From Promethearchaeota archaeon (GTDB lineage: Archaea > Asgardarchaeota > Lokiarchaeia > Sigyniarchaeales > SOKP01), in assembly GCA_016839705.1 (NCBI GenBank), contig JAEOTR010000023.1, positions 1-64,000 of the forward strand: a stretch of 64,000 bases of DNA. The letters are read 5' to 3'. Below, piece after piece: positions 8,209 to 42,005 of this stretch. The stretch's first letter is position 1, and each line of letters opens with the position of its first letter. A program made the position numbers and the translations under genes. The notes below the pieces were generated by a model, which was not told where the DNA came from, did no database searches, and saw only the letters and a list, made by a program, of their open reading frames with translations.

Positions 8209-8745
8209 TTGGCAAGCGAAATATTTACATTTAAAATAGTAATTTTTGGAGACCCCCGGACAGGAAAAACTACTCTTACTCATAGATTTTTGACGAATTT
8301 ATTCAAAGAAGAAATTTCTATGACACTTGGCTTAGATTTCATGCTGAAGGCGGTAGATATAGACAATATAAAAATTAAACTTCAGATTTGGGACTTTGCT
8401 GGTGAGGAACGATTTAGATTTCTATTTCCCTCTTATATCAGAGGTGCAAAAGGTGGAATTTTTATGTATGATATTACAAACTATGGCTCACTCGCACATG
8501 TTGATGATTGGCTTGAAATTGTAAACAAAGAAATAGATTACGACTTCCCTATTATATTTGTTGGTGGAAAAACAGACTTAATTCACCTTAAAGAAGTTTC
8601 GACAAGAAAGGCAATGGAAGTGGCAAACTCAAAAGGCGCTGATGGATTTATAGAATGCAGTTCTAAGACGGGAGAGAATGTTCATAAAATATTTCACTTA
8701 TTAACTAAACTAATCCTAAAAAATAAGAATCCTGAACAAAATTAA
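8209..8745 (+). CDS. Rab/Ras-like small GTPase
   Basis: A GTP-binding switch protein of 178 residues with all motifs in normal order: P-loop GDPRTGKT (about residues 14-21), switch I threonine in SMTLGLDF, G3 WDFAGEE, G4 GGKTDL (Asn of NKxD replaced by Gly) and G5 CSSKTG. There is no C-terminal cysteine, so no prenylation signal, as usual for Asgard GTPases. The start is TTG at 8209; there is no ATG before the P-loop. It lies between the helicase and the thioredoxin-like gene on the same strand. The effector or pathway cannot be told from the sequence. Confidence 0.92.
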   Translation: MASEIFTFKIVIFGDPRTGKTTLTHRFLTNLFKEEISMTLGLDFMLKAVDIDNIKIKLQIWDFAGEERFRFLFPSYIRGAKGGIFMYDITNYGSLAHVDDWLEIVNKEIDYDFPIIFVGGKTDLIHLKEVSTRKAMEVANSKGADGFIECSSKTGENVHKIFHLLTKLILKNKNPEQN

Positions 8746-34695: not shown

Positions 34696-35232
34696 TTATA
34701 CATAAAGTTTCTTTATAACTTCTTTTGCTAATAACTCGAATGCTAAATTCACATTCTCTCCTGTTTTAGAGGAAATCTTTAAATATTTAAAAAAATCATA
34801 CTTTTTAGGAAAAGTTAACGCGAAATCATCGTTTACAGAAATTGATTCTGTTAAATCCAATTTAGTTCCTAGGAAAATTATCGGAATATTTGGATTTTCT
34901 CCTCTACAAATGTTTACCCATTGTTCTATTTTATCTAAACTAGATGGACGTGTGAGATCAAAAAGTAGAAGAGCCCCTCTTGCCCCTTTGGAATAGTTTT
35001 TTAATAAAGGTCTAAAATGCTCTTGTCCACCAAAATCCCAAACTTGTAAATTAATTTTTCTCTTTTCAATCTCTAATTCTTTCATGAAGAATTCAACCCC
35101 GAGTGTCATCTTAGTGTCAACCAGAAACCTCCCTTCAATATAGCGATAAAGGAGGGTTGTCTTCCCCACGCCTCCTTCACCGGCTGTAATAACTTTGAAT
35201 AGTATTGGTTTGGGCATATTATTTCGCTTCAA
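34696..35232 (-). CDS. Ras-like small GTPase, GTPase/PIN cluster, member 1
   Basis: 178 residues. P-loop GEGGVGKTT (about 18-26), switch I Thr in TKMTLGVEF, G3 WDFGGQE, G4 GTKLDL (Asn replaced by Thr), G5 ISSKTGEN. GGQE at G3 is Arf/Rab-like. It is about half identical by eye to the GTPase at 35694, from which it is separated by a PIN-domain gene, all on the minus strand with short spacing. No lipidation signal. Function unknown; probably an operon-coupled switch. Confidence 0.92.
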   Translation of the reverse strand: MKRNNMPKPILFKVITAGEGGVGKTTLLYRYIEGRFLVDTKMTLGVEFFMKELEIEKRKINLQVWDFGGQEHFRPLLKNYSKGARGALLLFDLTRPSSLDKIEQWVNICRGENPNIPIIFLGTKLDLTESISVNDDFALTFPKKYDFFKYLKISSKTGENVNLAFELLAKEVIKKLYV

Positions 35233-35253: not shown

Positions 35254-35697
35254 TTAAGCTCTCTCAAAAGATAAATATTTCTTTTGTCTTAAAAAAATAA
35301 CATTAATACTTAACTTTTTTGATCTTCGGCGTAATTCTGAATCATTTGTAGCAAGAAAGACAGATTGATAATTTTCTTTTAATTCAGTTAACTTTCTAAT
35401 CATAAAATCATCAGTTGTTTCATTTATAGCTTTTATATCTTGAATAAATTCAATCTCAAAACGGTCCTTATTTTTTTCTAAATACGATAAACCAGATTTA
35501 AGTAATCTTATGAATCTCGTTACCCTAGGTTCTCTCTTTCTCTTTGCTTCAAGTTCATTTAGAATTTGTTGGAAAACTATAAACTTTAGTTTCCCATCTA
35601 AATTGGCTCGAATCTCATTTAGATAATCGATTTTAAACTGAAAAGGAAGAAGTATAAAATTAGCATCTAATATAATTAAAACAAGATTGGATCTCAA
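35254..35697 (-). CDS. PIN-domain protein, Fcf1/Utp24-like
   Basis: 147 residues. PIN nuclease fold: VLIILDANFILLPFQ (first Asp), a middle helix with LNELEAK (Glu), NETTDDFMIRKL (Asp pair) and FLATNDSELRRR (final Asp). The pattern resembles archaeal relatives of the rRNA-processing nuclease Fcf1 rather than VapC toxins, and no antitoxin gene is present. TTG start at 35697 overlaps the stop of the GTPase at 35694 (TTGA), indicating translational coupling with it. Confidence 0.82.
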   Translation of the reverse strand: MRSNLVLIILDANFILLPFQFKIDYLNEIRANLDGKLKFIVFQQILNELEAKRKREPRVTRFIRLLKSGLSYLEKNKDRFEIEFIQDIKAINETTDDFMIRKLTELKENYQSVFLATNDSELRRRSKKLSINVIFLRQKKYLSFERA

Positions 35698-36215
35698 TAA
35701 GTTTGTCGCTCTAATATTTTTTTTGTTAAAATCTCAAAAGCTTTCCCTACATTTTCACCCGTTTTAGAAGAGATTTTGAGAAAGTCAATTAAATTATATT
35801 CATTAAGAAACATTTTAGCATAATCATCGTCGACTTGAATATCATCATCTAAATCCAGTTTCGTCCCTAAAAAGAGAACGGGAAGATTTGGGTCACCCTT
35901 TCTTACTATATTGAGCCATTGTTCCAAATTTTCTAATGTGGTCATCCTTGTGAGGTCAAACATGAGCAGTGCTCCTTTTGCGCCTAGAACATAGCTTTCA
36001 AGTAAAAATCGAAATCTCTCTTGCCCACCGAAGTCCCAGAGCTGCAGTGTGCATTGTTTCTCCTCAATCAACGTCTCTTTTAAAAAAAATTCCACACCTA
36101 TCGTCATTTTTGTTTCAGCAGAGAATTTTCCTTCTACGTATCTATGGAGAAGTGTTGTTTTCCCTACTCCTCCCTCTCCTGCTGTTAAGATCTTAAGTAT
36201 GAATTTCTTCGGCAT
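35694..36215 (-). CDS. Ras-like small GTPase, GTPase/PIN cluster, member 2
   Basis: 173 residues with GEGGVGKT at 13-20, MTIGVEF switch I, WDFGGQE at G3, GTKLDL at G4 and ISSKTGEN at G5. It is a close paralogue of the GTPase at 34696. First gene of the minus-strand GTPase-PIN-GTPase run; its stop overlaps the start of the PIN gene. No membrane anchor is seen. The two paralogues share the Thr-for-Asn change in G4, so they probably arose by local duplication around the PIN gene. Confidence 0.93.
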   Translation of the reverse strand: MPKKFILKILTAGEGGVGKTTLLHRYVEGKFSAETKMTIGVEFFLKETLIEEKQCTLQLWDFGGQERFRFLLESYVLGAKGALLMFDLTRMTTLENLEQWLNIVRKGDPNLPVLFLGTKLDLDDDIQVDDDYAKMFLNEYNLIDFLKISSKTGENVGKAFEILTKKILERQTY

Positions 36216-37500: not shown

Positions 37501-37676
37501 ATAACCACATAAACAAGCGTTTCCGGGTTCGGATGGGACCGGGTATTATCCTAAATCACCATGACCGTGAGCGAACTCACAGTTTGTAGTTTCCCACAGA
37601 TATCAACCGCAGTACTATCTACAACGCGAGAAAGTTTAACTTCCGGCGCTTTACTTTATGTTATTTATGTGGTTAT
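37501..37676 (-). other. Precursor of the permuted 5S rRNA with processing stem and BHB motif
   Basis: The 5' arm AUAACCACAUAAA (37676-37664) is perfectly complementary to the 3' arm UUUAUGUGGUUAU (37513-37501). Nearer the rRNA, AAGCG (37651-37647) pairs with CGCUU (37519-37515). Inside follow CCGG (37646-37643) paired with CCGG (37526-37523), each strand carrying a 3-nt bulge on its 3' side: AAG (37642-37640) and AAA (37522-37520). Helix, bulge, 4-bp helix, bulge is the geometry recognised by archaeal tRNA splicing endonuclease. Cutting after the second base of each bulge releases 37640-37521. The inner flanking helix is weak (GUU/AAC at best), so it may be a relaxed BHB. Confidence 0.75.
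37521..37640 (-). rRNA. 5S ribosomal RNA, circularly permuted gene (predicted 120-nt circular product)
   Basis: Read on the minus strand, the 3' half of 5S rRNA comes first: GUUAAAC, helix II 3' strand, UUGUAG...CUACAA (helix V), AGUACUG and GGGAAA of loop E, helix IV UGCGG/CUGUG, then ACUGUGAG. A UUCG tetraloop (GUGAG-UUCG-CUCAC) connects to CUCACGGU, giving an 8-bp helix I, then CAUGG, the helix II 5' strand, and helix III/loop C with CCCGGUCCCAUCCGAACCCGGAA. Every conserved 5S block is present once, but rotated. Joining 37521 to 37640 restores GAACCCGGAAGUUAAAC as in ordinary archaeal 5S rRNA, total 120 nt. Helix II is the weak point, with central pyrimidine mismatches. No normal 5S gene is in the window. 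Confidence 0.9.
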
Positions 37677-37693
37677 AAAACCACGAGATTACC

Positions 37694-37702
37694 ATTTAAT
37701 AA
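37694..37702 (-). promoter_or_regulatory. TATA-like element for the permuted 5S rRNA gene
   Basis: TTATTAAAT on the minus strand, centred at 37698, which is about 22-25 bases upstream of the 5' end of the processing stem (37676). That is the usual TATA-to-start distance in archaea, so the transcript would begin at or next to the stem. Confidence 0.45.
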
Positions 37703-37846
37703 GGACGGTTATTTTCTTTGTAAATACCTTCTTATTTGGTAAAATGTAAATAGAAAAAATATAGCTTAATAATTAAATTTTTTCATTAGAAAGATTAAAT
37801 TTAAAAGGAGCAAAACAAATCACGCTAACGACAGATAGGATTTTAA

Positions 37847-40418: not shown

Positions 40419-42005
40419 ATGTCATTTGATTTAGAAGATATTGCAGGAATTGGGAAAACAACCGCAGAAAAAATGAGAGCGGCAGGGATAGATTCAATTG
40501 AAAAATTAGTTGGAGTTAAACCTGAAGATTTAGTAAAGTTAAAAATCAAAGGTGTAGGTAAGGCTAAAGCTCAAAACATAATTTCAGATGCAACAGAAAT
40601 TCTTGAAGAGCTTAGCAAAAAAGAAAAATCCTCAAAAGTGCTAACGGAAAAAATTGATGAGAAACCAAAACCAAAATCTAAACCTGAAACAGCAACAAAA
40701 TCTAAATCAAAACCAACTTCTAAAGAAAAGCGAACTTCATTAAAAGAATTAATAAAACAACAAGCAGAATGTAATATTGGTCTTGTTGGGCATGTAGATC
40801 ACGGAAAAACTACACTTGTTAAATCTTTAACGGGAGATTGGACTGATCGACATTCTGAGGAACAAGAACGAGGCATTTCAATAAAATTAGGTTATTCTAA
40901 TGCTACAATTCTCTACTGTCCTGTTTGTGATGAATATACTACCGCCCATCTTATAGAAATAAAAAGAGCAAAAGGTCAACCTCGGTTTACATGCCAAAAC
41001 TGTAAAGGGAATTTAGAATTTAGAAGAAATATATCATTTGTTGATGCCCCTGGTCATGAGATTTTAATGGCAACTATGTTAAGTGGTGCGTCTTTAATGG
41101 ATGGTGCTTGCCTTCTAATCGCTGCAGATGAGAGATGCCCCCAACCTCAAACACGAGAACATCTAGCCGCATTAAATATTGCGGGGATTAAAAAAATAAT
41201 CATCTTACAAAATAAAATTGATGCAGTTTCTCGGGAACAAGCTTTAGAGAATTTTCAGCAAATTAAAATATTTGTAAAAGGCACTGTTGCAGAAAATGCT
41301 CCAATCATACCAGTTTCAGCAGTTTTTGAGGCGAACCTCCATTTAGTTATAAGAGCTTTTGAAGAAATTATCCCTACTCCTACTTTTAATGAGGAGGAAA
41401 CCTTTCAATTTTTAATTGCTCGATCATTTGATATCAACAAACCAGGAAAAAATATTGCAGAATTACAAGGTGGGGTAATAGGCGGTTCAGTATTAAAGGG
41501 TAATATTGAAATTGGGTCTCAAATTGAAATAAAACCAGGTATACGCGTTAAGGAGGAGTATATTCCTATTAAATCAAAAGTTGTAAGTATTAGTCAAGGA
41601 GATCAAAATTTAGAAATTGCAAAACCAGGTGGACTAATTGGTTTAGGTACGAACTTAGATCCAGCATTGACTAAAGGCGATCATCTAATTGGACACCTAG
41701 TTGGAAAACCAGGAACACTTCCCGAAATTCTTAAAGAAGTTGAATTAAAAGTCAATCTTTTAGACAGAGTAATTGGTTCAGAAGTACAGATGAAGGTCCA
41801 ACCACTAAAACATGGTGAAAAATTGTTATTAGTTGTTGGAACTGAGAAAACGGGTGGAACTGTTACCAAAATATTAAAGAATAGTACAATAATAAATCTC
41901 ACACCGCCAATCTGCCCTCCTGAAGATTTTATATATGCAATTTCTCGTATCATAAATAGACGTTATCGTTTAATAGGATATGGTGAAGAAGTAAACCACA
42001 AATAG
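40419..42005 (+). CDS. eif2g: Translation initiation factor aIF2 gamma with N-terminal helix-hairpin-helix domain
   Basis: Carries initiator tRNA to the ribosome as GTPase subunit of aIF2. 528 residues; ordinary aIF2gamma is ~410. The extra ~115 residues are a helix-hairpin-helix domain (IAGIGKTTAEKMRAAGI and LKIKGVGKAKAQNII, residues 8-60, like the N-domain of RadA or topoisomerase-linked HhH) and a Lys/Pro/Ser linker (65-108). The GTPase follows with GHVDHGKTT (124-132), the zinc knuckle CPVC...CQNC, DAPGHE and NKID, then the two beta-barrel domains. ATG 40419. The HhH domain could bind rRNA, tRNA or DNA (inference). Confidence 0.93.
   Translation: MSFDLEDIAGIGKTTAEKMRAAGIDSIEKLVGVKPEDLVKLKIKGVGKAKAQNIISDATEILEELSKKEKSSKVLTEKIDEKPKPKSKPETATKSKSKPTSKEKRTSLKELIKQQAECNIGLVGHVDHGKTTLVKSLTGDWTDRHSEEQERGISIKLGYSNATILYCPVCDEYTTAHLIEIKRAKGQPRFTCQNCKGNLEFRRNISFVDAPGHEILMATMLSGASLMDGACLLIAADERCPQPQTREHLAALNIAGIKKIIILQNKIDAVSREQALENFQQIKIFVKGTVAENAPIIPVSAVFEANLHLVIRAFEEIIPTPTFNEEETFQFLIARSFDINKPGKNIAELQGGVIGGSVLKGNIEIGSQIEIKPGIRVKEEYIPIKSKVVSISQGDQNLEIAKPGGLIGLGTNLDPALTKGDHLIGHLVGKPGTLPEILKEVELKVNLLDRVIGSEVQMKVQPLKHGEKLLLVVGTEKTGGTVTKILKNSTIINLTPPICPPEDFIYAISRIINRRYRLIGYGEEVNHK

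Follow-up and report, generated by a model that had tools for sequence, protein, structure and literature searches.

A 5S rRNA Gene in Permuted Order

The window, that is, the whole stretch of 64,000 nucleotides that was analysed, belongs to the draft genome of a Promethearchaeota archaeon and carries on its minus strand the elements of a 5S rRNA in an unusual order; the question that this locus raises is whether an archaeon can possess a 5S rRNA gene with its two halves exchanged and, if so, which RNA would be made from it. Reading of the minus strand between 37640 and 37521 revealed that all five 5S helices are there and that their order is permuted. Read from 37644 down to 37521, this strand begins with GGAAGUUAAAC, followed by helix V, loop E, helix IV, and helix V′, while its second part comprises the UUCG-closed helix I, GGUCAUGG, the 5′ strand of helix II, and ACCCGGUCCCAUCCGAACCCGGAA; the helix I hairpin contains both the 3′ and the 5′ ends of an ordinary 5S. 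Loop C and loop E are recognizable together with helices I-V, helix II being weak. When the predicted circle of 120 nt was folded without constraints, helix I (8 bp, UUCG), helix V (6 bp), helix IV (6 bp, with wobble pairs), and helix III were recovered, in agreement with the pairings of helices I, V, and IV given in the initial annotation, which had been made from the letters alone; helix II was again weak, with internal mismatches. The end points assigned there, 37521 and 37640, coincide with the cut sites obtained below. The features are collected in Table 1.

Table 1. Features of the permuted 5S locus in the window (model R1 and the bulge-helix-bulge, or BHB, motif are described in the text; ↓ marks a predicted cut).
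Feature	Position	Strand	Basis
Predicted mature 5S rRNA, 120 nt	37521..37640	-	sequence, R1 match 37521-37645, circle fold
Element order in predicted mature 5S: II 3′ strand, V, IV, V′, I 3′ strand, UUCG, I 5′ strand, II 5′ strand, III	37521..37640	-	
Helix I, 8 bp, UUCG tetraloop	37564..37583	-	sequence and circle fold
H*: CCGG, BHB central helix 5′ strand, mimics helix III 5′ strand	37643..37646	-	best BHB pairing by script
Bulge 2 (AA↓G), cut predicted at 37641/37640	37640..37642	-	inferred from BHB rule
H: CCGG, BHB central helix 3′ strand, also the helix III 3′ strand	37523..37526	-	best BHB pairing by script
Bulge 1 (AA↓A), cut predicted at 37521/37520	37520..37522	-	inferred from BHB rule
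AAGCG, inner flank helix 5′ strand, partner 37515-37519	37647..37651	-	sequence, BHB pairing by script
CGCUU, inner flank helix 3′ strand	37515..37519	-	sequence, BHB pairing by script
AUAACCACAUAAA, 5′ strand of the 13-bp outer flank helix, partner 37501-37513	37664..37676	-	sequence, precursor fold
UUUAUGUGGUUAU, outer flank helix 3′ strand	37501..37513	-	sequence, precursor fold
CTTATTAAATGG, TATA-box-like site	37692..37703	-	upstream regions compared by eye

Sites resembling the TATA-box-like element were also seen, by eye, upstream of the locus in several close relatives, and a promoter role is suggested for it. Two genes for small Ras-like GTPases lie near the 5S locus, at 34696-35232 and 35694-36215 (-), as read from their translations, and the gene at 40419-42005 (+) codes for an eIF2-gamma with an N-terminal helix-hairpin-helix domain (PF14520), which is common to the listed Asgard relatives. 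The close relatives of this eIF2-gamma, where named, are Promethearchaeota, Thorarchaeota, Hodarchaeota, and other Asgards, which bears out the assignment of the permuted 5S to an archaeon. A phage origin was dismissed: blastn against phages gave two short matches, to two records of one phage, with E 0.7.

Searches with 5S Models and Covariation of the Core

At the gathering threshold, Rfam produced no entry for the window. At a relaxed threshold, the linear model RF00001 matched the locus as two halves of 23.1 and 22.1 bits, the cut-off being 38, just as the initial annotation had expected of a linear model; there is no match in linear order above the gathering score at this position, and the locus was therefore filed as a permuted variant of 5S. 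The genome (G000) is a draft of 3.36 Mb in 97 contigs, 93% complete, and in the rest of it no further RF00001 match was found at E <= 10. No 16S was detected in this draft either, and this assembly by itself is therefore not enough to show that a linear 5S is absent: a linear gene could be missing from it as well. RF02547, the mtPerm-5S model, gave no match in G000 at E <= 10.

An alignment of 27 permuted cores (A2) was used to build a permuted model, R1, which scores 102.8 bits at the locus, itself one of the 27 sequences. In this alignment 30 of the 37 base pairs have changes on both sides. The covariation score is 0.576 versus 0.186 in shuffles, none of 500 shuffles being as high, although kinship among the sequences can by itself beat shuffles without any structure; the fraction of paired cells is 84.3% versus 62.5%, and for further pair types 2 of 500 shuffles were as high. 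The reference structure was taken from one aligned sequence and is for this reason favoured over slid versions. Helix V pairs in 63% of cases, probably an underestimate given that in A2 this helix is one column out of register for family f1, to which the window belongs. These patterns indicate that the permuted core is under structural selection and, together with its recurrence in 136 of 227 genomes, that the locus is not a product of chance.

Distribution of Permuted and Linear 5S Genes

A first survey with RF00001 over 117 relatives revealed many adjacent pairs of half matches. R1 and RF00001 were then each run over 227 genomes of the phylum, with stricter filters by which weak matches are lost; the permuted layout, for which the initial annotation had proposed to look in related Asgard genomes, was found in 136 of them at E <= 4e-10 (53 bits or more), including 56 of the 65 genomes of the window's family. 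Twenty families are concerned (f1, f4-f7, f9-f12, f17, f18, f20-f23, and f25-f29), and the named carriers include Baldrarchaeum yapensis and Njordarchaeum guaymaensis. Weak R1 matches occur in 37 further genomes, 34 of which carry a linear gene above the RF00001 cut-off and reach at best 48.1 bits (G218); the other three are G066, with what seems to be another breakpoint, G117, apparently permuted when read by eye, and G132. The remaining 54 genomes have no R1 match at E <= 0.01. A strict pattern scan of genome contigs returned seven Asgard and nine non-Asgard stretches; the latter score 26.5-37.4 bits with R1, two of them (L135 and L136) having been read as linear and seven judged by score only.

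Linear 5S genes above the RF00001 cut-off are present in 64 of the 227 genomes, and 59 of these belong to families f2, f8, f13, f15, and f19, which contain no strong R1 match. Seven genomes with permuted 5S consist of a single contig (G004, G008, G084, G119, G157, G158, and G159; G084 is a contig of 1,418,269 bases), two of the seven being 70-71% complete, and none of them has a linear match above the cut-off. A permuted gene and a linear match above the cut-off occur together in five genomes. The linear copies of G012, G051, and G149 adjoin bacterial LSU rRNA and were rejected as foreign contigs; that of G140 scores 38.4 bits, versus a cut-off of 38, and overlaps the permuted copy. The fifth, in G124 (C117, about 8277-8414, minus; loci L148 and L181), is a linear 5S interrupted by a BHB intron of 23 nt that falls exactly at the Asgard permutation point. 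It was rejected as an Asgard intermediate: 11 of the other 12 genomes in the genus have a match to the RpoB″ of the contig, at an identity of only 43-46%, and one has none; the best named relatives of this protein among the 120 matches listed are Aenigmatarchaeota (78%), with one Heimdallarchaeota (72%) and one Archaeoglobales also named. The contig is thus most likely a foreign one from Aenigmatarchaeota and carries no evidence on Asgard ancestry. The initial annotation had considered that a linear 5S elsewhere, together with decay of the locus in relatives, would speak against it; on the contrary, relatives retain the permuted gene and show compensatory changes in it, and the searches gave no linear Asgard copy alongside it.

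Some arrangements deserve a record of their own. Two tandem permuted units are present at G162:C510 (L145), with flanks that differ and that are self-complementary within each pair. Several permuted copies lie at contig ends in G140 (L138-L141) and G142 (L142-L144), which suggests a dispersed multicopy 5S in family f25. Three tandem linear 5S genes are found in a single-contig genome of family f2 (L013, G070:C1:1399892-1400758), a family of the same order as that of the window. The contaminating bacterial LSU rRNA gene in G012 (L005, contig C68) contains a group I intron match.

A BHB Motif in the Flanks and the Predicted Joint

The flanks of the locus pair with each other in the precursor fold (z -3.45; 1 of 200 shuffles as good), and they form a BHB geometry, in which a 4-bp helix is followed on both strands by a bulge of three bases and then by a flanking helix. 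In the 4-bp helix, an upstream copy of the helix III 5′ strand pairs with the helix III 3′ strand, which in the window reads CCGG. The window has the geometry of an EndA substrate, with CCGG/CCGG, the bulges AA↓G and AA↓A, and AAGCG/CGCUU; 12 nt separate the inner from the outer flank helix. No clear exon-side helix, as in the canonical hBHBh′ form, is seen at this locus beyond bulge 2, which lies on the 5′ side; according to the part of the source consulted, some archaeal enzymes also take relaxed BHB forms as substrates (PMC7714728).

The BHB rule that was applied takes a helix followed by a bulge on each strand, cuts after the second bulge base, and joins the ends; the script picks the best-scoring BHB pairing and is blind to the joint. 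After joining, loop C and helix II were separated by the canonical 7 nt in 60 of 74 loci (72 genomes), versus 6.4% of 1480 flank-shuffle controls; of 36 linear Asgard genes examined, 24 could be read (the other 12 did not fit the pattern), and 23 of these 24 have the same spacing. Fourteen loci lack it when the top-scoring pairing is used: three of family f21 give 8 nt, and the other eleven, which include three loci each from f23 and f1 and two from f4, miss it; L065 and L067, both among these f1 loci, do have the canonical pairing, but another one scores higher. The 74 loci exclude six with a moved breakpoint, which were tested alongside, L154, repeats of included loci, those at or close to contig ends (L058, L138, L140, L141, L143, L144, L149, L150, and L174), the weak L157, and L175, whose core end was mis-set by a loop C insert.

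The flank helix varies in sequence, with 51 distinct patterns, and its first five positions are 92-100% paired, versus 41-56% with swapped flank partners; the mean flank pair score is 30.3 for a locus's own partners and 16.2 for swapped ones. Registers were also compared by means of a profile made from 32 linear Asgard 5S genes, starting from the same 74 loci, from which three without a helix I anchor and six without a row for the joint were dropped. The BHB joint ranked top or tied among 121 registers in 40 of 65 loci and had fewer than five better registers in 57, the other eight ranking poorly. In the window, CCGGAA is present at either end, and several registers tie as a result; this repeat makes the exact cut inside it ambiguous, the product being the same.

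Moved Breakpoints and Candidate Introns

In five loci (L030, L033, L035, L036, and L037) the permutation point has moved, CCAUCCGAACCCGGAA being found at the 5′ end and not at the 3′ end; a sixth, L028, has the same kind of shift, which amounts to the transfer of a 16-nt segment from the 3′ end of the gene to its 5′ end. In the five, the BHB is formed by CCGG UC↓A and CUGG AA↓C and the rule joins ACCCGGUC to CCAUCCGAACCCGG, giving a normal loop C, while in L028 the same rule restores a loop C of normal length. CCGG is self-complementary, so that both strands of helix III are possible partners for a single flank copy, which may be the reason why the shift could occur. L154 (G066:C63, minus), of family f3 in the order of the window's family, gives no clean joint with the best-scoring BHB; a third breakpoint, on the other (5′) side of loop B, is possible there, and a better BHB was tentatively found by eye.

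Short inserts interrupt several of the permuted genes: 29-30 nt in helix IV (L064 and L031), 30 nt in loop C (L066, L072, L156, L175, and L176), and 32 nt at helix III (L169). In all eight loci a BHB exists, and removal of the insert restores a canonical or relative-like sequence. The BHB score was reached by none of 300 shuffles in L066, L156, L175, and L169, by one in L064, and by six each in L031 and L072; in L072 the joint that restores the sequence ties with another one. These inserts of about 30 nt are candidate BHB introns. In genus g5 (L039, L060, L061, and L156) helix I is extended by a hairpin of about 30 nt; introns were dismissed here, as no BHB restores a normal sequence in L039 and L156, the two examined, and the extensions are taken as longer hairpins. 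The script could not cut out the insert of L177, and no convincing BHB was found in the long linear match of G214 (L180).

Proposed Maturation and Alternative Readings

The genes themselves show that the order is permuted, that the fold covaries, that the flanks have the geometry of a BHB, and that the BHB rule gives the canonical joint, and from these findings the steps that would follow transcription are proposed. The flanks of the precursor would pair; the tRNA-splicing endonuclease (EndA) would cut at 37641/37640 and 37521/37520; RtcB would join both ends into a 120-nt circle; helix III would form after joining; and the circle, its helix I capped by UUCG, would go into the ribosome. Both enzymes are encoded in G000 (EndA, 97.8 bits; RtcB, 564.3 bits). 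We think that the circle remains closed because the tight helix I loop leaves no leader or trailer for removal. It is thus quite likely, in our opinion, that the only 5S gene found in the draft is a permuted one whose transcript is cut at the BHB and ligated into a circular 5S rRNA. Slightly less confidently, we consider it probable that most Asgard lineages have a ribosome with a covalently circular 5S, made by the tRNA-splicing machinery, that the breakpoint was moved by reuse of the BHB helix, and that several lineages have short BHB introns in the gene.

The RNA might instead stay linear, with new, unligated ends near loop B or C that the flank helix protects or trims; permuted mitochondrial 5S genes are indeed known (PMC10085705, seen in part), and the circular form is here deduced from the genes. 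This reading seems to us unlikely: the upstream CCGG copy, if left on the RNA, would compete with helix III, BHB joining leads to the exact canonical sequence in most of the loci, and the moved breakpoints lie inside loop C, which is whole only after joining. The idea that a circle is made and then reopened in the helix I loop, yielding a normal linear 5S, is equally improbable; it would follow the example of permuted tRNA genes, whose transcripts are circularised and then cut (PMC10085705, in the part available), but the helix I loops are short, with no leader or trailer, and the sequence points to no cutting enzyme or site. Decay of the gene or an assembly artefact, with a normal linear 5S elsewhere, would fit a draft in which 16S is undetected; against this stand the layout in well over a hundred genomes, its presence in single-contig genomes without a linear match above the cut-off, and the compensatory changes, so that it can hardly be credited.

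Compared with the initial annotation, the flank BHB motif, the likely circle, the phylum-wide spread, the moved breakpoint, and the candidate introns are additions. The swapped halves hide the gene from the standard model, so that many Asgard genomes would seem to have no 5S at all. Should the RNA be circular, the ribosomes of much of the phylum would have a closed ring as one of their core parts, which matters for how ribosomes are assembled, for the stability of rRNA, and for how far the tRNA-splicing enzymes reach. With its linear, permuted, shifted, and intron-bearing forms, the 5S gene offers a natural series for the study of how RNA genes become permuted, and the gene concerned codes for an rRNA of the archaea nearest to eukaryotes.

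Comparison with Known Systems

Like mtPerm-5S (RF02547), the Asgard locus has a 5S rRNA in permuted order; unlike it, it is not an organelle gene, and that family's model does not match this genome. The permuted mitochondrial 5S rRNA mtPerm-5S was reportedly described by Valach in 2014, and we know of no BHB processing as part of it. Halobacterium and Sulfolobus have ordinary 5S genes. 5S-associated circular RNAs, one of them a whole 5S, were found in these two genera and regarded by the authors as possibly belonging to a degradation process, and they have several variable joints and no permuted gene, unlike the Asgard locus (PMC12558985, as far as the accessible text goes); circular 5S RNA as such is thus not new. 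In the accessible portion of one source, permuted 5S is listed with reference to organelles (PMC10085705), and in the parts of the open-access literature searched no report of a permuted archaeal 5S gene was found, in keeping with the initial annotation, which knew of no precedent for archaeal 5S.

Archaeal circular pre-16S and 23S rRNA share with the present case the BHB, EndA, and the ligation of an rRNA, but those circles come from genes in linear order (PMC12918454, PMC7758197, PMC7714728; parts of each). A 2026 paper on circular 16S and 23S transcripts of Asgards introduces circularisation for 16S and 23S and not for 5S, in the part seen (PMC12918454). Permuted tRNA genes likewise combine a permuted order with a circular intermediate, the tRNA circle being recut to the standard order (PMC10085705, in part).

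The closest parallel is the SRP RNA of Thermoproteus, again a permuted structural RNA gene whose leader and trailer form a BHB and which standard gene finding misses; according to the available part of that report, its precursor is cut at the BHB by the splicing endonuclease, the circle binds its proteins, and permuted genes are thought plausibly to derive from genes with simple BHB introns (PMC4731332). A BHB-circularised permuted structural RNA is thus known; its occurrence as a 5S gene, the wide distribution of that gene, and the candidate introns within it appear new. The Thermoproteus circle is functional, occurs in few species, and was established by RNA-seq and by EndA cleavage in vitro (PMC4731332, same portion), whereas the 5S layout extends over 20 families and its circle is predicted from the genes.
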